Source: Candidatus Aerophobota bacterium (lineage in GTDB: Bacteria > Aerophobota > Aerophobia > Aerophobales > JAGGXI01). From it: 37,603 nucleotides of DNA. The notes beneath the pieces were generated by a model. It was not told the origin of the DNA, did not search any database, and saw only the letters and a program-made list of their open reading frames with translations. The stretch covers positions 1 through 37,603 of the forward strand of contig JAGGXI010000076.1 of assembly GCA_021163155.1 (NCBI GenBank). Reading direction: 5' to 3'. Below are positions 2,296 to 17,089 of this stretch, in pieces (position 1 is the first letter of the stretch; the number at the start of each line of letters is the position of its first letter). A program made the translations under genes and the position numbers.

Positions 2296-4599
2296 ATGAG
2301 TGAGTTTACAGTTTTTGGGAAATCGGTGCCCAGAGTGGACGCTCGGGCTAAAGTTAGTGGAGAGACAAAATATCTTGATGATATTAAATTAGATGGGATG
2401 TTATATGGGAAGATACTTCGTAGCCCTCATCCCCATGCGAGGATATTAGGCATTGATATTAGTAAGGCAAAAAAATTAACTGGAGTAAGAGCGGTTATTA
2501 CAGCAGAAGATACTCCAAAGATTAAATTTAGTTTTGTCCAGGATTTAGCTGATAAACTTCCTCTTTGTGATAAAGAGGTTTGCTACGTAGGTGATGAGGT
2601 AGCTGCTGTAGCAGCGGATAGTTTAGAAATAGCGGAAGAGGCAATTGATTCAATAGAGGTAAAATATGAGGTTTTACCGGCTATTTTTGATCCTAAAGAA
2701 GCTATAAAACCTTCTTCTGTTCTTGTTCATGAAGATAATAAGAAGAGTAATATAGCTTTTGAGATACATAAAAAATTTGGGGATGTAGAAAAGGGTTTTA
2801 AAAAATCTGATCATGTTTTTGAAGATGAGTTTGTTACTTCAAAAGTTACTCATTGCTGTATGGAGACGCATGGATGTATCGCTTATTTTAACTATGAAGG
2901 TAGATTAACTATTTATTGTCCTTCTCAAGCACCTCACACAATTCGTCAAGAAATAGCGAGAATTTTAAATATACCTCGTTCTAAAGTGCGAATAGTGAGT
3001 ACTCCTGCAGGAGGAGCGTTTGGTGAGCGATTAGTTACGGATATGAAACAACCTGTAGCCGCTATCCTTTCCCGCCTTACAAGAAGACCAGTAAAAATAG
3101 TTAATACTCGAGAAGAAGAATTTATGACTGCTCGTACTAGATATCCCTATATTGTTTCTGTAAAGACAGGAGTAACTAAAAAAGGTAAGATTTTAGCCAG
3201 ACAAGCTAAAGTTGTTGTAGATAATGGTGCTTACAATGATAAAGGAATATCTACCCTTAATTATGCAGGAGAGTGTTTTCTTATGTCTTATAATATTCCT
3301 AATCTTCAATACGACGGTTTTGGGGTATATACTAATAAACAATTTGGAACAGCATTTAGAGGTTTTGGCAATCCTCAGGTAACTTTTGCTACAGAAACTC
3401 AGCTTGATGACATTGCTTCTAAGTTAAATATGGACCCTGCGGAATTACGGTTGAAGAATGTAAATAGAGCGGGGGATGTTACAGTATCTGGCACTGAGAT
3501 AACCAACTCGGGTCTTGTTGATTGTATTGATAGAGCAGTAGAAAAGTCGGGATGGCAAGAAAAGAGGAGTGGACCAAGGAAAGTGGGAGAAAATAAGTAT
3601 CGGGGAATTGGAATGGCTATAATGTCTCACACCGGCTCGGGAGGGAGATTTTATGGCTACGCAGCTACAGATACCTTTCTTAAGGTTTCAGAGGAAGGAC
3701 AGGTAACAGTAATTACTCCTGCTCCCGACATTGGACAGGGAACCACAACAGTTGTTGCTCAAATAGTAGCAGAAGTGATAGGGGTAGACCTATCAAATAT
3801 CATTGTTATTAATAGTGATACAGATATTATTCCTTATGATTTAGGAGCCTGGGGGAGTAGATCGGTTTTTGTTTGCGGAAATGCTGCTAAAGCTGCAGCA
3901 GAAAATTTAAAAAAAGAGATAATAGAAGTAGTCTCTAAAATGTTTGAAGTAAGCCCTGAAGAGGTAGAAATTAAGAATGGAGAAGCTTTTTTAAAAGAAA
4001 ATCATGGAAGAAGGATTTCTTTCGGTAAAGTAGCGGAATTTTCCGTTAATAGATTGGGCCATCCTTTATCAGGCAGAGGGCGTTATTTTGATCCTTTAGC
4101 TTCTGAGGTGACTTATTATAAACGTGCTGGCAAACATATTCCTACTTTTACTTATGGTTGTCAGATAGTGGAGGTTGAAGTAGATACTCTTACAGGGGAG
4201 ATAAAGGTAATTAAAATTACTGCTGCTCAAGATACTGGAAAGACTGTTAATCCTTATATGGCGGAAGGTCAGATGGAAGGAGCTATTCTTCAGGGATTAG
4301 GATACGCTCTTTCTGAGGAATGTCTTTTAGATAAAGGTCGACCAATAAATCCAAATTTTACTGATTACAAGGTATGGACCGCTCTTGATATACCTAAGGA
4401 AGAGATTATATTCGTAGAAACTGATGATCCTCTTGGTCCTTTTGGAGCAAAAGGGATAGGAGAACCGGGTTTAGTTCCTACGCCTGCGGCTATATCTAAT
4501 GCTATTTATCATGCTACTGGCATTCGGTTAAAACGGTTGCCTATGAATTCCGAGAGAATGTTTTATACTTTGAAAAAAAGAGATAATAATAAGAAGTAG
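2296..4599 (+). CDS. Xanthine dehydrogenase-family molybdenum hydroxylase, large subunit
   Basis: This 767-aa protein is the molybdopterin-cytosine-dinucleotide-type catalytic subunit. The N-terminal a/b-hammerhead domain (about residues 1-130) starts VPRVDARAKVSGETKYLDD. The cofactor-binding domain follows, with GGAFGE at 239-244, AFRGFGNPQ around R355, and GIGEPG with the probable catalytic base E723. The RGFG loop differs from the C-containing loop of aerobic CO dehydrogenases, so a purine, heterocycle, aldehyde or aromatic-CoA substrate is likelier. The separate FAD and 2Fe-2S subunits lie downstream, giving a three-subunit enzyme. An SD (AAGGAG) precedes the ATG. A 243-bp gap holding a palindromic repeat separates it from the FAD subunit gene. 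Assignment to xanthine specifically is not supported. Confidence 0.92.
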   Translation: MSEFTVFGKSVPRVDARAKVSGETKYLDDIKLDGMLYGKILRSPHPHARILGIDISKAKKLTGVRAVITAEDTPKIKFSFVQDLADKLPLCDKEVCYVGDEVAAVAADSLEIAEEAIDSIEVKYEVLPAIFDPKEAIKPSSVLVHEDNKKSNIAFEIHKKFGDVEKGFKKSDHVFEDEFVTSKVTHCCMETHGCIAYFNYEGRLTIYCPSQAPHTIRQEIARILNIPRSKVRIVSTPAGGAFGERLVTDMKQPVAAILSRLTRRPVKIVNTREEEFMTARTRYPYIVSVKTGVTKKGKILARQAKVVVDNGAYNDKGISTLNYAGECFLMSYNIPNLQYDGFGVYTNKQFGTAFRGFGNPQVTFATETQLDDIASKLNMDPAELRLKNVNRAGDVTVSGTEITNSGLVDCIDRAVEKSGWQEKRSGPRKVGENKYRGIGMAIMSHTGSGGRFYGYAATDTFLKVSEEGQVTVITPAPDIGQGTTTVVAQIVAEVIGVDLSNIIVINSDTDIIPYDLGAWGSRSVFVCGNAAKAAAENLKKEIIEVVSKMFEVSPEEVEIKNGEAFLKENHGRRISFGKVAEFSVNRLGHPLSGRGRYFDPLASEVTYYKRAGKHIPTFTYGCQIVEVEVDTLTGEIKVIKITAAQDTGKTVNPYMAEGQMEGAILQGLGYALSEECLLDKGRPINPNFTDYKVWTALDIPKEEIIFVETDDPLGPFGAKGIGEPGLVPTPAAISNAIYHATGIRLKRLPMNSERMFYTLKKRDNNKK

Positions 4600-4647
4600 A
4601 AAATTTATTTTTAATAGATAGAAAGAGCTCATTAAAGTTCTCCACCT

Positions 4648-4723
4648 GGGTAGGGGAGGCTTTAGCCTCCCAATCGCTTTTTAACTCTTGCTTCACAAAG
4701 GGCGACTAAAGTCGTCCCTACCC
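4648..4723. repeat. Nested-palindrome repeat (GGGTAGGG outer stem), copy A
   Basis: The outer arms GGGTAGGG and CCCTACCC enclose two inner hairpins, GGGAGGCTTTAGCCTCCC and GGGCGACTAAAGTCGTCCC, so the unit can fold as a branched structure. Flanking bases from about 4630 to 4750 match those of the copy at 14022-14180. Related cores lie inside the MITE-like elements at 21638-21894, 23869-24108 and 37203-37432. It fills most of the 4600-4842 gap between the large and FAD subunit genes. I see no other gene there. Confidence 0.85.
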
Positions 4724-4842
4724 ACAAGTGGGTTGTCTAAAATTTTGATGAAGCAGTACGAATATAGGAAGTAACTATTTTTTTACTCCAGAAAAAGTTA
4801 ATAGGATGTAAATTTTAGTATAAAAACAGGGAGGATAGGATT

Positions 4843-5727
4843 ATGTTAAGAAAAATGAAGAGATTTGAATATTTTGAGCCTTCTACGTTAGAAGAAGCCT
4901 TTTCTTTACTAAATAAATACAATGGCAAAGTAAAGATATTAAGTGGAGGTACAGATTTATTAGTAGCAATGAAAGAAAGAGGGTTAGCTCCTTCTTATGT
5001 AATGAATGTTAAGTGTATCCCCGGCTTGGATTATATTAAATACGAAGAGAAAAAAGATTTAAGAATAGGTGCTTTAACTACTATACGCACCATAGAGACC
5101 TCCAATGTAATTCGCGAGAAGTTTTCTGTGCTTGCTCAAGCGGCAAGTATGCTGGGCTCTATTCAAGTTAGAAATCGGGCTACTATAGGAGGTAATCTTT
5201 GCAATGCTGCTCCTTCAGCAGAGACTGCTCCAAGTTTAATTGGCTTAAAGGCTAAAGTAAAAATAGCAAGTTTGGAGGGAGAGAGGATTGTTCCTCTGGA
5301 AAAGTTTTTTGTAGGACCAGGGATAACTGTTTTGAAAAAAGGAGAAATTCTTGCTGAAATCATTGTGCCTTTCCCTTTACCCCACACCAAAGGAATATAT
5401 ATAAAATATGGCCGAAGAAAGGCTATGGAGATTGCTATGGTATCAGTAGCAGTAATAGCTACTTTGAGTGTAGAAGGAGAAGTATGGGAAGATGTAAATA
5501 TAATTCTTGGAGCAGTAGCCCCTACCCCTTTAAGGGCTCGAAAAGCAGAGGAAGTTTTGCAGAGTAAAAGAATAAGTGAGCCTTTAATAGAGAAAGTTGG
5601 CCAATTAGCTTACGAAGAAGCTTGCCCAATTTCAGATATGCGTGCTTCTGCTGATTATAGAAAAGAAATGGTTAAAGTATTAGTAAAAAAGGCCATAAGA
5701 GAGATTTCAGGATTAAAAAAGAGTTAG
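4843..5727 (+). CDS. Molybdenum hydroxylase FAD-binding subunit (CoxM/XdhB-like)
   Basis: At 294 aa the length is typical for the medium subunit of xanthine dehydrogenase-type enzymes, which passes electrons from the iron-sulfur subunit to an external acceptor. Two FAD-binding signatures are visible: the early KILSGGTDLLVAMKE segment, and RNRATIGGNLCNAAPSAE with TIGGN at residues 114-118. The C-terminal third matches the CO dehydrogenase flavoprotein C-terminal domain (GAVAPTPLRARKAEEVL). The start ATG has a strong GGGAGG SD. It lies between the large subunit and a small zinc-ribbon gene, and all are on the same strand, as expected for one enzyme complex. Confidence 0.92.
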   Translation: MLRKMKRFEYFEPSTLEEAFSLLNKYNGKVKILSGGTDLLVAMKERGLAPSYVMNVKCIPGLDYIKYEEKKDLRIGALTTIRTIETSNVIREKFSVLAQAASMLGSIQVRNRATIGGNLCNAAPSAETAPSLIGLKAKVKIASLEGERIVPLEKFFVGPGITVLKKGEILAEIIVPFPLPHTKGIYIKYGRRKAMEIAMVSVAVIATLSVEGEVWEDVNIILGAVAPTPLRARKAEEVLQSKRISEPLIEKVGQLAYEEACPISDMRASADYRKEMVKVLVKKAIREISGLKKS

Positions 5728-5757
5728 TATAATAAATAGGAGAAGAAGTAGGTTAAA

Positions 5758-6063
5758 ATGAAGTGCAATCTTCACCCTTTCTACCCGCGAAAATATTGCT
5801 GGGGATGTAAATATAAAGATATATGCGAAATTTGTGGAGAAAAAAAATATACTCGAAGGGTAAAAGCGAGGGAGGAAGGGGAAAAATTAGGGAATAAAGA
5901 AGATATAATAGCGATAAATATATGTGAGGATTGTTACTCTTCTATATTTAAAAAAGAAAAAATAAGAAGTTATGACGGAAGATTCGTCATTTATGTAAAA
6001 GTGGATAGCAAGAGGAATAAATTTTTAAAAATAAAATGCTATACTAAAATAAAGTGGGGGTAG
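5758..6063 (+). CDS. Small two-site zinc-ribbon protein of unknown function
   Basis: I do not recognise this 101-aa protein. It carries two apparent metal sites: C3, H6, C14 and C17 near the N-terminus, and C23, C26, C56 and C59 (CEICG and CEDC knuckles). The rest is basic and lysine-rich with no membrane segment. It sits between the FAD and 2Fe-2S subunit genes, with gaps of only 30 and 6 bp, so it is almost certainly co-expressed with them. The position suggests a role in assembly, cofactor insertion or electron transfer for the hydroxylase, or a regulator, but this is inference from context. Coding status is supported by the tight spacing and the paired cysteines. Confidence 0.75.
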   Translation: MKCNLHPFYPRKYCWGCKYKDICEICGEKKYTRRVKAREEGEKLGNKEDIIAINICEDCYSSIFKKEKIRSYDGRFVIYVKVDSKRNKFLKIKCYTKIKWG

Positions 6064-6069
6064 AGAATA

Positions 6070-6555
6070 ATGATTCAAAAGAGAATTCAGTTGAAGGTAA
6101 ACGGAGAAGAATATAAATTGGAAGTAAAATCTAATGATACTTTATTAGATGTAATAAGAGATAGACTTTCTCTTACAGGAACAAAGAGAGGTTGCGATAC
6201 TGGTGATTGTGGGGCCTGTACAGTTCTTCTTGAAGGTAAACCTGTTAACTCTTGTTTAGTGTTAGCCATAGAGGCTGATGGAAAGGAAGTAATTACTATA
6301 GAGGGATTAACAAAGGAAGGTAAGCTTGACTTGGTTCAAGAGGCTTTTATTGAACAAGGTGCTATCCAGTGCGGTTTTTGTACACCAGGAATGGTTTTAT
6401 CTGCTAAAGCTCTATTGGATGAGAATCGTAATCCTACAGAAAGTGAAATAAAGACTGCTATAGCAGGTAATTTATGCAGATGTACTGGATATGTTAAAAT
6501 TGTGAAAGCTATCTCTTCTGCAGCAGAGAAAATGAGAAAAATTAGAAAAAGTTAA
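6070..6555 (+). CDS. Molybdenum hydroxylase 2Fe-2S subunit (CoxS/XdhC-like)
   Basis: The 161-aa product is the small iron-sulfur subunit of the three-part hydroxylase. The N-terminal ferredoxin-like domain has the plant-type cluster ligands C42, C47, C50 and C62 (CDTGDCGACTVLLEG...NSC). The C-terminal helical domain holds the second cluster with C101, C104, C136 and C138 (QCGFCTPGM and CRCTGY), the cluster closest to the molybdopterin in known structures. All eight ligands are present, so it should be functional. It starts 6 bp after the zinc-ribbon gene and ends the hydroxylase block. The UbiX-like gene follows after 88 bp. Confidence 0.95.
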   Translation: MIQKRIQLKVNGEEYKLEVKSNDTLLDVIRDRLSLTGTKRGCDTGDCGACTVLLEGKPVNSCLVLAIEADGKEVITIEGLTKEGKLDLVQEAFIEQGAIQCGFCTPGMVLSAKALLDENRNPTESEIKTAIAGNLCRCTGYVKIVKAISSAAEKMRKIRKS

Positions 6556-6643: not shown

Positions 6644-7201
6644 ATGAGGTTAGTTGTTGGGATAAGTGGAGCAAGTGGTGTTATATATGGAGTAAGACTT
6701 CTTGAGGAATTAAAAAAGAAAAAGATAGAAACTTATCTTACAATAACGCCGACAGCGGAGAAAATTTTAGAATACGAAACTGATTTTAAGAAAGAAGAAT
6801 TAATAAAACTTGCAAGTCATTATTGTACTATTGACGATATGTTTGCTCCTATTGCCAGCGGTTCTTTCAAAATTGAAGGCTGTGTGATTGTTCCTTGCAG
6901 CATGAGAACAATAGCTGGTATAGCTTATGGATATTCTGAGAATCTTTTATTAAGAGTTGCTGATGTTACTTTGAAGGAAAAAAGACCTTTAATCTTAGTC
7001 CCCAGAGAAACTCCTTTAAGTATAATCCATTTGGAAAATATGCTACGCTTGGCATATAGGGGGGCTAACATCTTACCTGCTATGCCTGCATTTTATCATA
7101 ACCCGAAAACATTGAATGATAATATTAATTTTATAGTGGGCAAAATTTTGGATATTCTAAAAATTGATAATAATTTATACTTAAGATGGAAAGAGTATTA
7201 A
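6644..7201 (+). CDS. ubiX: UbiX-like flavin prenyltransferase
   Basis: At 185 aa this matches UbiX/Pad1 proteins, which attach a dimethylallyl group to FMN to make the prenylated flavin used by UbiD-type decarboxylases. The N-terminal flavoprotein motif GISGASGVIYG binds FMN. The central VPCSMRTIAGIAYGYS and the later LVPRETPLSIIHLENML segments are family signatures. No ubiD is in the window, so the partner must lie elsewhere, or this copy serves a decarboxylase linked to the neighbouring redox cluster. The SD GGAAAGGAG is good. The protein ends at its normal length, and its TAA stop lies inside the terminal TTAA of a repeat element that begins at 7198. Confidence 0.9.
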   Translation: MRLVVGISGASGVIYGVRLLEELKKKKIETYLTITPTAEKILEYETDFKKEELIKLASHYCTIDDMFAPIASGSFKIEGCVIVPCSMRTIAGIAYGYSENLLLRVADVTLKEKRPLILVPRETPLSIIHLENMLRLAYRGANILPAMPAFYHNPKTLNDNINFIVGKILDILKIDNNLYLRWKEY

Positions 7202-8153: not shown

Positions 8154-9857
8154 TTATGTAGAGATCAACTTTTTGGCAAATTCAATAGCCTTTTCTTTAG
8201 TGTTGATTTTTCCTGATACTTGAGCTTGGTGAATTTTATTTAAAATATAAGCAATTTGAGGACCAGCAGGAATCCCCAATAACTTCATCACTTCTTCTCC
8301 TTTAATTAATATAGAATGACGTGATAATAAAGAGGATTTTTGAAAATATTCTTGAAGAAGAGAGAAAACAAATTTTTGAGAGGAAAAACACTCAAAATTT
8401 ACTGTTAAAAAGAGTAACGAAATTTCCACCGTTTCCTTGTCTGCTTCTATTAAGAATTGAGCTGTTAACGTGGGATTTCTTTGCTGGCCTTCCATAATTT
8501 TTTCTATGGATGGATAGATTTTTTCTACTTTTTCTATTATTGTTATCTGTTTGCGGGTTAGCTTCAAGTGCTTTCCTATAGAGGATAAAGAAGTTTTCTC
8601 TGCCGGAGAAAAGAGTAAAACAATAAGTTTTAATAGATCTTTCCGATTTTTTTTGTCCTGGTTATTCTCCCTTAAATGGAGTAAAACTTTTTTTCTAATC
8701 TCTCTGGGAATTATTTTATTAGAAGAGAGTATTTCTTCTAATCTTTTTAAATTTTTTATATTTGGGTTCTGTCCAAATATCTGTTTTAACAATATTTTTG
8801 AAGAGGGATTATCTATATATTTATGAGAAATAGGGCATTTAAGCAAAAGAAAAATTTCTTCCCTTACTCGTTCTATAGATACATTTTTAATAGAGATAGA
8901 TTTTTGCTGAAAAAAAGGGGAAATATTTTCTTCTATATCGAAGCTGAGTTGCGCAGCTAAACGAAAAGCTCGCAACATACGAAGAGGGTCTTCATCTATC
9001 GATTCTTTTCTTATTAACTTAATTTTCTTATTTATTAAATCCTCTAAACCTGTAGAAGGGTCTATAAGAAATAAAGAAGGGAATTCAAGGTAGTCTACAT
9101 CCAAAGATAAAGCATTGATGGTAAAATCACGTTTGATTAGATTTGTTTGTACTTGGTCATAGTTTTTAAGAGTAAAGTCGATATTAACCTCTTGAGAAAA
9201 GGAAATTTTTCTTAAAGTAGGACTCAAGGTAATTAAGTTTCTTTTTATATGTTGTGCAAAGAGTTGAGCAGTTTTAAAATTAAGGTCTTCTACTATTAAA
9301 TCTAAGTCTTTTTTCTCTTTTCCCAAAAGAAGATTCCTGATGCATCCTCCTACTAACCAAATTTTATCTTTCCCTTTTACTTCAATTAACTTTTTAAGAA
9401 GAGGGTCTTTTTTTAGGGAATCTTTTAGGTAAGTCCATTTTAAAAAACTTTTTGATCCTCTTTCTTTACTGATCTTATCCAATATCCCATTAACAAATTT
9501 TCCTGAATCAGCTGTTCCGTAGCGTTTGGCTATTTCTACAGCTTCATTTATACTTACTACAGGAGGTATATCGTCGAGAAGAAGAAGCTCGTAGATAGAT
9601 AGGCGCATGATATTTCGATCTACTGTAGCCATTCTATCGAGAGTCCAATTTTTAGCGTATTTTTTGATTAAAGCGTCAATAGGGGAAAGAAATTGATAAG
9701 TCCCTAAGATTAACTTTTGGGTAAATCTTTTTATCTCGGGCTTAAATCTATAACGAGAAAAGGTGATATCTAAGACTTTCTCTGCCGAGATTTTTCTTAT
9801 ATCTACCTCGTAGAGAATTTGTAGAGCAATTTCTCTAGCTCTGCGACGATTTTTCAT
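8154..9857 (-). CDS. NusB fused to CCA-adding/poly(A) polymerase-type nucleotidyltransferase
   Basis: Residues 1 to about 132 form a complete NusB domain (RRRAREIALQILYEVD ... SINEAVEIAKRYGT), the RNA-binding antitermination factor that acts with NusE on rRNA leaders. From about 150 to 567 follows a class II tRNA nucleotidyltransferase: the head domain has VGGCIRNLLLG (G170-G171), the metal-binding DLD at 184-186, and KRDFTINALSLDV, followed by EDPLRMLRAFRLAAQ and a helical RNA-binding tail. The reading frame is continuous, with no stop or frameshift between the parts. The head motif reads GGCIRN where GGxVRD is usual, a conservative difference. An AAGGA lies about 11 bases before the ATG. 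The catalytic half is probably CCA-adding, since the tRNA in this window lacks an encoded CCA, but poly(A) polymerase cannot be excluded. Confidence 0.88.
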   Translation of the reverse strand: MKNRRRAREIALQILYEVDIRKISAEKVLDITFSRYRFKPEIKRFTQKLILGTYQFLSPIDALIKKYAKNWTLDRMATVDRNIMRLSIYELLLLDDIPPVVSINEAVEIAKRYGTADSGKFVNGILDKISKERGSKSFLKWTYLKDSLKKDPLLKKLIEVKGKDKIWLVGGCIRNLLLGKEKKDLDLIVEDLNFKTAQLFAQHIKRNLITLSPTLRKISFSQEVNIDFTLKNYDQVQTNLIKRDFTINALSLDVDYLEFPSLFLIDPSTGLEDLINKKIKLIRKESIDEDPLRMLRAFRLAAQLSFDIEENISPFFQQKSISIKNVSIERVREEIFLLLKCPISHKYIDNPSSKILLKQIFGQNPNIKNLKRLEEILSSNKIIPREIRKKVLLHLRENNQDKKNRKDLLKLIVLLFSPAEKTSLSSIGKHLKLTRKQITIIEKVEKIYPSIEKIMEGQQRNPTLTAQFLIEADKETVEISLLFLTVNFECFSSQKFVFSLLQEYFQKSSLLSRHSILIKGEEVMKLLGIPAGPQIAYILNKIHQAQVSGKINTKEKAIEFAKKLIST

Positions 9858-10676: not shown

Positions 10677-10690
10677 AAAGGGTGATTGAA

Positions 10691-11029
10691 ATGATAAATT
10701 CTTATGAGTTTGGATATATTGTTATTGATGGAAAAAGTTATACTTCAGATGTTATTATTTATCCACAAAGAATAGATGCTAATTGGTGGCGAAAAGAGGG
10801 GCACCTTCTTTTTCCTCAAGATATAAAGGAAATTATAGAGGAGAAACCGGAGGTTCTTATTATAGGTACAGGAGATTTTGGGTTAATGAAAGTTCCTCCT
10901 GAAACTCTAAAGTATATTAAATCAAAGGGAATCGAGGTGAAAACTAAACCTACAAGATTAGCATGCCAGCTCTATAACGAAATTTATAATTCCCAAAAGA
11001 CGATTGCTGCTTTACATTTAACTTGTTAA
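10691..11029 (+). CDS. Mth938-like domain protein
   Basis: The product of about 112 aa matches the small Mth938/AAMDC-like (DUF498, PF04430) fold: INSYEFGYIVIDGKSYTSDVII, then the central EVLIIGTGDFGLMKVPPETL and the end KTKPTRLACQLYNE. The family is widespread but has no settled biochemical role in bacteria. ATG 10691 is preferred because homologues begin with 'M-I-x-S-Y-x-F-G'; GTG 10682, which is in frame and preceded by GAGGG, would add three residues. It lies between the HU terminator and prfB and appears to be transcribed alone. Confidence 0.82.
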   Translation: MINSYEFGYIVIDGKSYTSDVIIYPQRIDANWWRKEGHLLFPQDIKEIIEEKPEVLIIGTGDFGLMKVPPETLKYIKSKGIEVKTKPTRLACQLYNEIYNSQKTIAALHLTC

Positions 11030-11113
11030 AAAAATACAAAACTTTTTATCAGTGTAATCATTTTTAGGAACGTGTGTAATCAGAGGTCCTTTTTTGTACC
11101 TTTTTTTGTAAAG

Positions 11114-11141
11114 TTGACTAATCGATTCCTTATGCTATCTT
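11114..11141 (+). promoter_or_regulatory. Promoter of prfB
   Basis: TTGACT (11114-11119) and TATCTT (11136-11141) are 16 bases apart. The prfB SD follows about 10 bases downstream of the -10 box. Upstream, at about 11050-11100, lies a short copy of the GTGTAATCAGAGG repeat family. Confidence 0.55.
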
Positions 11142-11158
11142 AAATTAAGGAGGATAAT

Positions 11159-12263
11159 ATGACAACGAAAGGTGATTTCGGATTAATAAATTTAAAGGAA
11201 GAGATAAATAAATTAAGAGGATATCTTTGAAGTAGATAAAATAAAAAAGAAGATCAAAAATTTAGAAAAAAAGGTTTCATTAAATTCCTGGAAGGAAACC
11301 GATAAAAATATAGAGATATTACAAGAATTACACCGTCTTAAGGAAAAAGAGGAAGAATGGAATAAGATAAATGTTTTATATGAAGAATTACTTACTTTAG
11401 AGCAACTTCTTGAAGAGGAGAAAGATGAGAGCTTGGAAGAGGAGAAGAGAAAGAAGTTAGTATTTTTGCAAAAAAAATTAAAAGAATATCAGATAAAATC
11501 GTTATTAAATGGTAAAAATGATCGAGCTAATGCTATTTTATCAGTTCACCCAGGGGCAGGGGGTACAGATTCATGTGATTGGGCAGAAATTCTTCTTAGA
11601 ATGTATTTAGAGTGGGCAGGGAAGAGAGGATATAGAATAAGAGTGGTAGAACGAATAGATGGGGAGGAGGCAGGTATAAAAACGGCTGTAGTAGTAATTG
11701 AGGGAGAATTTGCTTATGGTTATCTTAAACAGGAAGTGGGAATCCATAGATTAGTTCGTATTTCCCCTTTTGATGCTTCTCATCGTCGCCATACCTCTTT
11801 TGCTGCAGTAGATGTGATTCCTGAGGTTGATGAGATTAAAGTAGAAATTAAAGAGAGCGATCTTCATATTGATACTTTTAGATCCAGTGGACCAGGGGGT
11901 CAACATGTCAATGTTACAGATTCTGCTGTAAGAATTACCCATCTACCTACAGGAATAATTGTGCAATGTCAAAATGAGCGTTCCCAGCATAAAAACAAAG
12001 CTACAGCAATGAGAATTCTTAAAGCTCGGTTATATAATTTTCATGAACTGGAGAAAGAAAAGGGATTTAAAAAAAGACACAAGGAGAAAGCGAGAATAGA
12101 ATGGGGTAACCAGGTGCGCTCTTATATTTTACATCCTTATACTTTGGTTAAAGATCATAGGACTAATGTAGAAAGAAGTGATGTAGAGAGAGTATTAGAG
12201 GGTGATATTGATGGTTTTATAATTGCCTCTTTAAAAGAAAAAAATTTGATAAATAGAATTTAG
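11159..12263 (+). CDS. prfB: Peptide chain release factor 2 with programmed +1 frameshift
   Basis: Translation begins at ATG 11159 (AAGGAGG upstream) and runs 23 codons to an in-frame TGA at 11228-11230. The context is the classic RF2 autoregulation site: a purine-rich AGAGGA, then TAT CTT TGA, so the ribosome can slip +1 on CTT and continue at GAA 11229. The full product is about 367 aa, the usual RF2 length. S202-P203-F204 is the UGA/UAA-recognising tripeptide, and G246-G247-Q248 is the catalytic GGQ that triggers peptidyl-tRNA hydrolysis. When RF2 is scarce, the pause at TGA favours the shift and restores RF2. Calling only the downstream frame (from TTG 11433) would miss the N-terminal domain. 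Confidence 0.95.
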
Positions 12264-12267
12264 TCAT

Positions 12268-12432
12268 CAGAATTCAGGAGCCAGAAGAGATAATGAATGA
12301 TATAGAATTAAAAAGAAAAATTGAAGAAAAGAATGTCATCTAAATTCTTCTTAAGTTTATTTGTATTCTTACTACTGAATGTTGATTAGCCTTGTTCTAT
12401 TCTGAATTCTGGCTTCTCACTGCTGAATTCTA
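12268..12432. repeat. Inverted-repeat-bounded segment in the prfB-guaB3 gap
   Basis: AGAATTCAGGAGCCAGAAG near 12269-12287 recurs in reverse complement within 12402-12431, where the copy is interrupted by a few bases (CTGGCTTCT...CTGAATTCT). The 320-bp gap 12264-12582 otherwise shows no gene. It ends in the strong SD AAGGAGG of the next gene. Confidence 0.55.
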
Positions 12433-12582
12433 CATAGAAGGAGTTCCCATGGTTTGCCGAATAGGGGTTAAAAGATAACTGAGTTTACAGAAATTTTTAG
12501 TTTAATGTTAGAGAAAAGTAGATAATTTTGAATTTAATATTCTAAGAAAGCTATTGCTTTATAAACAAGTAAGGAGGTTATA

Positions 12583-13737
12583 ATGGGCGGCTTTTATATA
12601 GGTAAAGAAAAGAGAGCGCGAAAAGCTTACGGATTTGATGAAGTTGCTTTAGTTCCGGGTAATAAAACCCTTGATCCTGGGGATATTGATATAAAATGGA
12701 AAATAGGAGATATAAATTTTGATATTCCTATTATAGCTTCAGCGATGGATGGGGTTGTAGATACAAATTTTGCTGTTCGGATGGGAAAATTAGGAGGATT
12801 AGCTGTTTTAAATTTGGAAGGAGTTCATACCCGCTATGAAAATCCAACAAAAATGATAGAGGAGATTATAAATTCTTCTAATAAAGAAGCTATAAAGATA
12901 ATCCAAAATATTTATAAAGAACCGATAAAAGAAGAGTTAATAGAGAAGAGAATTAAACAGATGAAAAAGGAAAAAGTTATTACTGCTGTATCTTGTACCC
13001 CTCAGCGAGCAACTCATTTTGGCCCAATTGCTCAGGAGGCAGGAGTAGATATTTTCATTGTTCAGGCTACAGTAGCTACAGCAGAATATATGTCCTCTAA
13101 GAAGAAAGGATTAAATATTAAAAAATTCTGTAAAGGGCTTTCTGTCCCAATTATCGCAGGAAATTGTGTTACTTATCAATCTGCTTATGATCTTATGGAA
13201 ACAGGGATAGATGCTCTTTTGGTAGGAGTGGGTCCGGGTGCCGCCTGCACTACCCGTGAGGTTTTAGGAATAGGGGTTCCCCAAGTTACTGCTACTGTTG
13301 ATGCTTCTGCTGCTCGGGATGATTATTTTAAGAAGAGCGGTCGATATGTTTCTGTTATTACTGATGGAGGTATGAGGCTAGGAGGGGACATATGTAAGGC
13401 TTTTGCCTCCGGAGCAGATGCAGTAATGATTGGTTCAGCTTTTGCTCGGGCTGAAGAAGCCCCGGGAAAAGGCTATCATTGGGGTATGGCCACCTCGGAT
13501 AAAAATTTACCTCGAGGAGCAAGAGTGAGAGTAGGAACAACAGGCACATTAAAAGATATTCTTTATGGTCCGGCTAAATTAGATGATGGTTCTCAAAATT
13601 TAGTCTGGGCGATAAAAACTTGTATGGGATATTGTGGAGTAGCTAATATAAAAGAGATGCATGAAGTTGAGATGGTAATTGCTCCCGCTATAAAAAGCGA
13701 AGGTAAATTTTTTCAACATACTCAAAACCTTTTTTAA
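12583..13737 (+). CDS. guaB3: GuaB3-family IMP dehydrogenase-related protein
   Basis: The 384-aa product is a TIM-barrel enzyme of the IMPDH/GMP reductase superfamily, closest in pattern to the GuaB3 (IMP_DH_rel) group. The catalytic loop [17 protein letters not shown] places the nucleophile at C222, and the phosphate-binding [15 protein letters not shown] and [15 protein letters not shown] segments follow. It has no CBS pair, and carries the helical insertion (about 90-130) and the [13 protein letters not shown] flap typical of the group. Some GuaB3 proteins are reported to act as GMP reductases; whether this one makes XMP or IMP cannot be decided here. It has its own strong SD and stands alone before the convergent rpmB. 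Confidence 0.85.
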
Positions 13738-14860: not shown

Positions 14861-17089
14861 TTAATTTATTTCTTTATAATACTTTATTTTTAAAGGATGA
14901 GCTCCTCTATCGAGAATTACTTTTATTTTCTTCTCTGAAATAATTTCTTTTAATTTCTTAATCTGGCCAAGGGATGTCACCGTAAAACAGTTAGAGCGAG
15001 TTGTAATTAAATTAGAAAGAGAACGAAATATCATTTCTTTCTCATCATCTTCGTCAATATATCCATCTCCATCATCATCCTTTCCATTATAACCCAATTT
15101 AGCTATGATAATAATCTCAAGTAATTCTCCTATCTCATTAAAAGGTTTTCTTTTGCTATTCCCGTAATTTATTATAGCATTAGCTAATGAGGAGTCGATT
15201 CCGGGAAGACTTTTTAAAACTTGACGAGATGCAGTATTTATGTTTATTCTTCCTTTTGTAGTTTTTACAGGAGGATTAGCTATACTAATTTTGTCCAGTA
15301 TTTGCCAGTCTCCTCCAGCCTGTAGTTTTATTGTCTGCCACTCTTTCCCTTTATGGATATATCCCACTTCTCCGATATTAGCAAAGGGCTTATTTTTAAT
15401 ATAGAAGCTGCTATAGTCATTTTCATCGTTTCCTTCGCCTACGGTAGGCATCCAGAACCAGTTGCGGAAGCCAGGGCTTCCTCCAGGAAGACTACTAACA
15501 AATTTTCTTGCCCTTGGGTCGTTTTTTTCAAAAGCATTCCAGGGGGCCCCATAATTATCATAGGATACTTTGTCTACTATATTTCCCCATGTATCTATTA
15601 AGATTACTGTATCACTGTTATTATTTAGTAGTTCTTTGCCTATAGTCTCCCCCTCCATTTTTATAACCATATTAAATATAATTCTATATCCCCGAGCAGG
15701 AACTTCTCCCCATAATATCATCCTTCTTAAGGAGGTTTTAATTTGCCATCCCCATATTTTACAAGAAGTATCATAAGGATTAAAAAGTTCTATCCATTCC
15801 ATTTCTATATCTATATCTATCTTTTTACCTGCCTTTTTATCTGTCTTCTTTTCCGCTGCTTCAGCTTTTTCCTCTTTAAAAATTTTTAAAACTCCTCTTG
15901 TCTTTTCCACTGTTTCTTTATTATCTTCAAGCTCGTCAAGGATCCGCTTTAGATTTTCCTCTTTATCCGAGGTGTCTTTTTCTATTTCATTTTCTATTAT
16001 TCTTGTGGCTTTTTCTTCCAATTTCTCTTTCGTCTTCTCTTTTATTTTATCCTCAAGAAGGCTTATTCCTCCTTTTATTAAATCTTTTGCCGCTGTTGTA
16101 ACTGAAGAAGTAAAGTGAGGCATTACTTCATTAATGTAAGGGGTTCTCTCAATCCCATATTTACCTTTATATTCTGTAGGAGAATTATTTTCATCACGAA
16201 AGTCAACTATATTCACAGCTATTTGATTAGCTTTATCTTGAGATATCCCTATTTTTTGTAAGGCCTGGCTAATAGTAGAAGCAGGAGAAATATTAATATT
16301 AACTCTTAAATTTTTTTCTTTGTCTACATTTTTATCATAAGAGTAAACAGTAATATAATCCTTTATTTTATTGAAAGTAGTTTCTCCTATTCCCTTAACA
16401 AGCCTTACCTCTTCTATAGTATCAAAGGGATTATCGTCTCCATAAGGTTTATCTGGACAAAACTCATCGGGCTCGTCAATCCCTTCATTTTTTTCATCTA
16501 TTATACCATCTCCATCATTATCTATTCCATCTGATTGAAGGATATTATTATCTTTATCGTCATCTACTCCTTTTTTGCCTGGAGAGGCGTCTTTACCATA
16601 ACGATAGTTTATGATTGATTCCACTTTCTCATTATCAAGTCCATTTAGTGTCCCTAAATTAACTTCGTAGGTAGTCCACCCTTGGTTAAACTTTTCATTA
16701 CCGGCTGTATTTAAATTAATCTTTGATGCTTCATCGAAAATACCTAACTTATCAACATTTTCTTTGTTCTCTTCTTCAACAACGTTATAGATTCCCTCTC
16801 CTAATTCTCCTTTAACGCCTTTTGCCCAATTCTCATAAAGGTCGTCATATTCATTGTTATCATTTTTTAATTCAGCTATTGCTCTTTCTATCCCCGCTTG
16901 AGCAAGATAATTTGCCTTAATACTATCTTTATAGTTAAAGCTTGCCCTTTCTTCAATTCTCATTTTATAAAGAAAACTTATAGCCATTATCCCAAGAATA
17001 GATAAGAGAAATAGAGAGAGAATTAATCCCATCTGCCCTTTGTCTCTTTTACGAAGGAAAAGTTTTATCTTAAATAAAACCTTATTCAT
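14861..17089 (-). CDS. Large GspK-like pseudopilin with helix-hairpin-helix and lamin-tail domains
   Basis: At 742 aa this is more than twice the usual GspK length. A type IV pilin-like N-terminus (KGQMGLILSLFLLSILGIM, membrane helix about 20-42) is followed by the GspK/PilX hallmark LAQAGIERAIAEL. Next come a first helix-hairpin-helix-like unit (SKINLNTAG, 122-130), a calcium-loop-like DNDGDGIID (190-198), a second HhH (about 224-248), a third (about 265-300), a charged coiled-coil region (about 340-425), a probable lamin-tail domain (about 428-530, WIELFNPYD...), another HhH (GRININTASRQVLKSLPG, 613-630) and a second DDDGDGYID loop (671-679). GspK caps the type II secretion pseudopilus. No other gsp genes are nearby, so the partner system is unknown. 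It is probably co-transcribed with the zinc-ribbon gene upstream (2-bp gap). Confidence 0.8.
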   Translation of the reverse strand: MNKVLFKIKLFLRKRDKGQMGLILSLFLLSILGIMAISFLYKMRIEERASFNYKDSIKANYLAQAGIERAIAELKNDNNEYDDLYENWAKGVKGELGEGIYNVVEEENKENVDKLGIFDEASKINLNTAGNEKFNQGWTTYEVNLGTLNGLDNEKVESIINYRYGKDASPGKKGVDDDKDNNILQSDGIDNDGDGIIDEKNEGIDEPDEFCPDKPYGDDNPFDTIEEVRLVKGIGETTFNKIKDYITVYSYDKNVDKEKNLRVNINISPASTISQALQKIGISQDKANQIAVNIVDFRDENNSPTEYKGKYGIERTPYINEVMPHFTSSVTTAAKDLIKGGISLLEDKIKEKTKEKLEEKATRIIENEIEKDTSDKEENLKRILDELEDNKETVEKTRGVLKIFKEEKAEAAEKKTDKKAGKKIDIDIEMEWIELFNPYDTSCKIWGWQIKTSLRRMILWGEVPARGYRIIFNMVIKMEGETIGKELLNNNSDTVILIDTWGNIVDKVSYDNYGAPWNAFEKNDPRARKFVSSLPGGSPGFRNWFWMPTVGEGNDENDYSSFYIKNKPFANIGEVGYIHKGKEWQTIKLQAGGDWQILDKISIANPPVKTTKGRININTASRQVLKSLPGIDSSLANAIINYGNSKRKPFNEIGELLEIIIIAKLGYNGKDDDGDGYIDEDDEKEMIFRSLSNLITTRSNCFTVTSLGQIKKLKEIISEKKIKVILDRGAHPLKIKYYKEIN

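Follow-up and report, generated by a model that had tools for sequence, protein, structure and literature searches.

The question raised by this locus is whether a single open reading frame can genuinely encode both a complete NusB and a complete tRNA nucleotidyltransferase, and what the two halves of such a protein would do. Lasting gene fusions often signal proteins that work together, and the fusion in Aerophobetes is a naturally occurring case in which to ask whether tRNA maturation is recruited by antitermination complexes. Throughout, "the window" denotes the whole stretch of DNA that was analysed (37,603 nucleotides), and "the order" denotes the bacterial order to which its genome belongs.

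One frame, two domains

The gene and its parts, all on the minus strand of the window, are as follows.

8154..9857, minus strand: nusB-cca fusion gene, one frame of 567 aa, with its ATG at 9857-9855 and its stop codon at 8156-8154
9465..9857, minus strand: NusB domain, aa 1-131, complete (Pfam, NCBIfam and structure match)
9366..9464, minus strand: linker, aa 132-164 (alignment of 11 homologues)
9021..9365, minus strand: class II nucleotidyltransferase head domain, aa 165-279 (PF01743)
9300..9308, minus strand: catalytic DxD (D184-L-D186), both Asp invariant (alignment)
9132..9173, minus strand: shortened motif A-B loop, aa 229-242, 14 residues (loop comparison)
8979..8993, minus strand: nucleotide-template motif EDPLR, aa 289-293, of the EDxxR type, with D290, P291, L292 and R293 invariant
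8778..8942, minus strand: neck / RNA-binding domain, aa 306-360 (PF12627, slightly below cut-off)
8181..8600, minus strand: C-terminal body/tail, aa 420-559 (PF13735)

The minus-strand translation of 8154-9857 runs for 567 aa without a stop, and the plus strand here is rich in stops. At the N-terminus, the Pfam NusB match (aa 5-131, E = 2.1e-37) covers profile positions 1-133 of 133, and the NCBIfam nusB equivalog (TIGR01951) scores 139.5 bits against a cut-off of 88. That is, the likeness to known NusB proteins (TIGR01951 / PF01029) extends over the full domain and its fold, and the difference lies in the attached nucleotidyltransferase. The latter spans aa 165-567, a complete class II enzyme, with Pfam matches to the PolyA_pol head (aa 166-279, E = 1.6e-14) and to tRNA_NucTran2_2 (aa 420-559, E = 5.5e-9); the match to PolyA_pol_RNAbd (aa 306-360) reaches 21.6 bits against a cut-off of 22. 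An AlphaFold2 model of the fusion, built from an input of 11 homologues, has a mean pLDDT of 87. Its NusB half superposes on T. maritima NusB (1tzv) with a target TM of 0.86 and an rmsd of 1.6, and the model also fits solved CCA/CC-adding enzymes. Given the Pfam and NCBIfam matches and the stop-free translation, the original prediction, according to which one 567-aa frame joins a complete NusB to a complete class II nucleotidyltransferase, is borne out, and its coordinates are right; the strand, left unstated there, is minus.

Conservation and distribution of the fusion

The same two-domain order, which the original prediction proposed to look for in other genomes, recurs at full length in 10 additional genomes from the order (11 with the window), in frames 44-59% identical to the window copy; a further copy (L014) runs off the end of its contig. 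Those matches that bear a name belong to Candidatus Aerophobetes MAGs, drawn from several assemblies, and kinship places the window's genome with them. Across the 11 aligned full-length homologues the linker (aa 132-164) shows gaps in just 1-2 columns, and L139, W141, L148 and L154 are invariant. Its dN/dS is about 0.05-0.15 where dS can be estimated, dN being far below dS; as judged from these rates, the linker is evolving under purifying selection.

The divergent neighbours of the fusion, named by sequence recognition, are listed below.

10682-11029, plus strand: small protein
11433-12263, plus strand: release-factor-2-like gene
12583-13737, plus strand: IMP-dehydrogenase-like gene

All three (10682..13737) also adjoin the fusion in two order-mates (L025 and L027); a third, with a short flank (L062), has the release-factor gene there. 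Thus the order-mates carry a fused frame, several of them with shared flanking genes, rather than the two separate genes that would have spoken against the prediction. The source data are a MAG, and an assembly or sequencing error might be imagined to have joined two genes, but we reject such a merger as scarcely credible because full-length fusions occur in 11 genomes, the named copies coming from several assemblies, at 44-59% identity to the window copy and with shared synteny, and the linker between the two domains is under purifying selection. We also rejected the release of a free enzyme from an internal start: the linker region contains no ATG, and no GTG or TTG there either recurs in every species or follows an obvious ribosome-binding site.

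Outside the order, a broad survey covered 386 genomes, 369 of them from other bacteria, with matches listed down to about 2e-37, a level above which the fusion is expected to rank. No fusion of NusB with a nucleotidyltransferase occurs among the listed matches from these 369 (about 370) genomes; the two proteins lie there in separate frames, and the NusB frames of other phyla are roughly 130-220 aa among the matches listed, bar one. Five phylum searches likewise returned no fusion: four of these phyla were represented by 2-9 genomes each, and the fifth by 386 further genomes, with no match of fusion strength. The exceptional frame (L120:2514-5000, plus strand, genome G353, contig C97) is an 829-aa union of NusB with NAD-dependent DNA ligase (LigA) that adjoins riboflavin genes; it may be either a real fusion or a sequencing error. 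In another genome of the same genus (G223, locus L135), nusB and ligA are separate adjacent frames.

Each domain is already known in itself, and it is their fixed union in place of a free NusB that appears to be undescribed: we found no account of a NusB-nucleotidyltransferase fusion in the open literature, most subscription journals lying outside the scope of that search.

The two halves and a second nucleotidyltransferase

We wish to establish whether the fusion supplies the cell with its only NusB. The window's genome is 93% complete, and a profile search at the Pfam NusB cut-off finds a single NusB in it, the fusion itself. The same holds across the order, where all 12 NusB domains over the cut-off sit in the fusion frame (17 genomes searched). 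A stand-alone nusB, whose presence was a natural concern of the original prediction, is thus absent over the Pfam cut-off from the window's genome and from the 17 order genomes. Five of the 17 have neither the fusion nor a NusB match, and all five are 69-84% complete. Candidates for a second nusB in the window's genome and the order amount to two sub-threshold matches, of which the one on contig C108 falls in an unrelated-looking 162-aa frame.

In E. coli, NusB pairs with S10 (NusE) and binds boxA in rRNA antitermination (PMC6614801, PMC10250234). By analogy, the NusB domain of the fusion should form the same pair with S10 and recognise boxA in nascent rRNA. A known precedent in architecture is RsmB, the 16S rRNA m5C967 methyltransferase, in which an N-terminal NusB-like domain is likewise placed on an RNA-modifying enzyme. 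The enzyme attached in RsmB is a methyltransferase, and a separate NusB exists alongside its NusB-like domain, whereas the NusB domain of the fusion is itself the genome's sole NusB over the cut-off. Cross-matches of the fusion to the RsmB family stay below the NCBIfam cut-off.

The second half carries the class II motifs GG..R, DxD, RRDFT-like and EDxxR, as seen by alignment, and D184, D186, R243, D244, D290 and R293 are invariant across the fusions (11-homologue alignment). The loop between motifs A and B, measured from the second catalytic strand to the RRDFT-like motif, has 13-14 residues in the 11 fusions versus 28 in the A-type enzymes compared. Many unfused relatives have the same loop length of 13-14 residues, and some genomes with such an unfused enzyme also hold an A-type enzyme (for example G026, with L131 and L132). 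Deletion of the flexible loop is, according to reviews, the hallmark of bacterial CC-adding enzymes (PMC3925840, PMC7014341), although loop transplants do not always convert specificity (PMC3925840). By eye, the B/A (basic/acidic) motif upstream of the loop reads LKK or LKN in most fusions, versus RRE/RKE-like in A-type enzymes. The HD motif of many unfused short-loop relatives is absent from the fusion.

The solved nucleotidyltransferase that matches best in sequence is 3wfo; we take 3wfo-3wfs to represent the CC-adding enzyme of A. aeolicus (AaS). The fusion resembles AaS in its short A-B loop, its DxD, RRDFT-like and EDxxR motifs and its overall fold, and differs from it in having an N-terminal NusB and in not clustering with it in the tree. 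In that tree the fusions form one supported group (100/99) that is not joined to 3wfo, and the deep branches are weak. Since grouping with the A. aeolicus reference is not seen in the tree, the CC-adding label is supported mainly by the short loop.

Two other assignments were considered. A full CCA-adding enzyme would be expected to possess the flexible loop of that class, which is missing in the fusions. As for a bacterial poly(A) polymerase (PcnB), which we rejected, its signature, which we assume to be [LIV][LIV]G[RK][RK]F.[LIV], is absent from all fusions in a pattern search run without a known PcnB as positive control, and the fusion scores 75.7 bits on TIGR01942, where the cut-off is 306. 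The enzyme half is therefore most likely, from its motifs and loop, a CC-adding enzyme rather than a full CCA-adding enzyme or a poly(A) polymerase. Of the earlier label "CCA-adding/poly(A) polymerase", the class II nucleotidyltransferase stands; the remainder is at odds with the deleted loop, the missing PcnB signature and the presence of a long-loop partner elsewhere in the genome.

That partner answers the question of a second cca, which had been raised from the sequence. On contig C92 of the window's genome (G000), a frame of 871 aa, unlike the fusion in type, combines DHH, CBS and nucleotidyltransferase domains, with a long motif A-B loop and no NusB. It matches the A-adding family NF041569 over its full length at 743 bits, short of the curated cut-off of 1440; the solved enzymes nearest to it are the CCA-adding enzyme of T. 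maritima (E = 1.6e-76), followed by the A-adding enzyme of A. aeolicus (5e-66). An enzyme of this A-adding or T. maritima CCA-adding type, in the same genome, is the probable partner of the fusion and is unlike it in its 28-residue loop, its DHH and CBS domains and its lack of NusB. Because the NF041569 score falls below the cut-off and the closest solved relative is a CCA-adding enzyme, the partner could, on sequence grounds, add all of CCA alone. DHH-CBS-type frames of about 860-920 aa occur in every order genome with any match except G002, whose listed frame has 441 aa; some of these frames were inspected individually. In four order-mates (G003:C58, G004:C41, G011:C17, G012:C1) the DHH-CBS nucleotidyltransferase gene lies about 5-10 kb from 16S, by chance or by shared synteny.

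Substrates for both activities can be sought in the rRNA operons and tRNA genes. A boxA-like TGCTCTTTGA lies near both ends of 16S in all seven order genomes that have a 16S, the upstream site about 50 bases before 16S with 0-2 mismatches to TGCTCTTTGA and the site after 16S with 0-1 mismatch. The window's own genome has no 16S match, and so the boxA evidence comes from its relatives. In all seven, tRNA-Ile and tRNA-Ala adjoin 16S, and where gene order was read out the operon runs boxA - 16S - tRNA-Ile - tRNA-Ala - boxA. Most operon copies of the two tRNAs encode CCA; in L113 and L116, the 16S-23S spacer holds a tRNA-Ile and/or tRNA-Ala without one or two of the CCA letters, and the other five species keep CCA. 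Of 37 distinct tRNA genes inspected in the window's genome, 13 have no encoded CCA, so that tail addition is needed. Since boxA flanks 16S and these 13 genes lack CCA, both activities of the fusion are plausibly needed. We had also considered boxA sites upstream of tRNA genes as support for coupling, and discarded them: the window's genome shows no boxA excess near tRNA genes, its six one-mismatch matches being about the number estimated by chance (roughly 5).

Readings of the join

The reading we prefer, to which we assign a probability of roughly two in three, is that the frame encodes one bifunctional protein that would serve both as the sole NusB and, in a system that splits CC from A addition, as the CC-adding component. 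In this scheme the N-terminal domain would act with S10 (NusE) on the boxA of newly made rRNA, the C-terminal class II enzyme would add C74 and C75 to tRNAs without them, and the separate long-loop DHH-CBS nucleotidyltransferase would add A76. The most plausible gain would come from tethering the enzyme close to the transcripts of rRNA operons, in which tRNA-Ile and tRNA-Ala are included; a neutral join is just as possible. We infer both activities, the division of labour between CC and A addition, and any benefit of tethering. Together with its DHH-CBS partner, the fusion provides a case of how split CC/A tRNA finishing is organised.

Whether the join itself matters is a separate question, and we give even odds to the view that it does not: the genes would have been joined once in an ancestor, the domains would work independently, and both activities may be retained. 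Each domain has a known role of its own, CCA is encoded in most of the spacer tRNAs of the rRNA operons, and boxA sites are not in excess near tRNA genes. In addition, the NusB-LigA frame of L120, compared with the separate genes of G223 in the same genus, indicates that adjacent genes can end up as one frame. Against neutrality, the join is unsplit in every genome seen, down to 44% identity, and the linker is nearly fixed in length with four invariant residues.

Under the opposite view, which takes up the coupling suggested in the original prediction, NusB at boxA/S10 would bring the CC-adding domain to RNA still being transcribed, and the operon tRNAs (Ile, Ala), or 3' ends of other kinds, would be finished or repaired near the polymerase. 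The operon order in the order-mates is consistent with such delivery, as are the incomplete CCA tails of some operon tRNAs in two of seven species (L113 and L116), the single NusB and the long-standing conservation of the linker. However, CCA is already encoded in most operon tRNAs, and a nucleotidyltransferase requires a free 3' end, so that RNase cleavage must precede its action; we regard delivery as possible but doubtful. The wider proposal, that the lineage as a whole would possess an antitermination factor with its own tRNA 3'-end enzyme, coupling rRNA transcription to tRNA-end finishing or repair, strikes us as unlikely.

Less probable still is a scheme in which the DHH-CBS partner builds the whole CCA tail, as happens in Thermotoga, and the fusion is otherwise employed, for example in C addition to other RNAs or in tRNA repair only. 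The rank of the T. maritima CCA-adding enzyme ahead of the A. aeolicus A-adding enzyme points in this direction, as does CCA addition reported for the aeolicus A-adding enzyme (PMC3925840). But the fusion retains its catalytic residues, and its short loop is shared with a large unfused group, some of whose genomes, such as G026, also have an A-type enzyme.

Elsewhere in the window, further genes were recognised from their sequences. A molybdenum-hydroxylase-like set (large, FAD and 2Fe-2S subunits) occupies 2296-6555 on the plus strand, and a gene resembling the flavin prenyltransferase UbiX accompanies it at 6644-7201. At 14861-17089 on the minus strand lies a large frame whose start resembles a minor pseudopilin of type II secretion or pili, and which by eye contains a long internal charged stretch.
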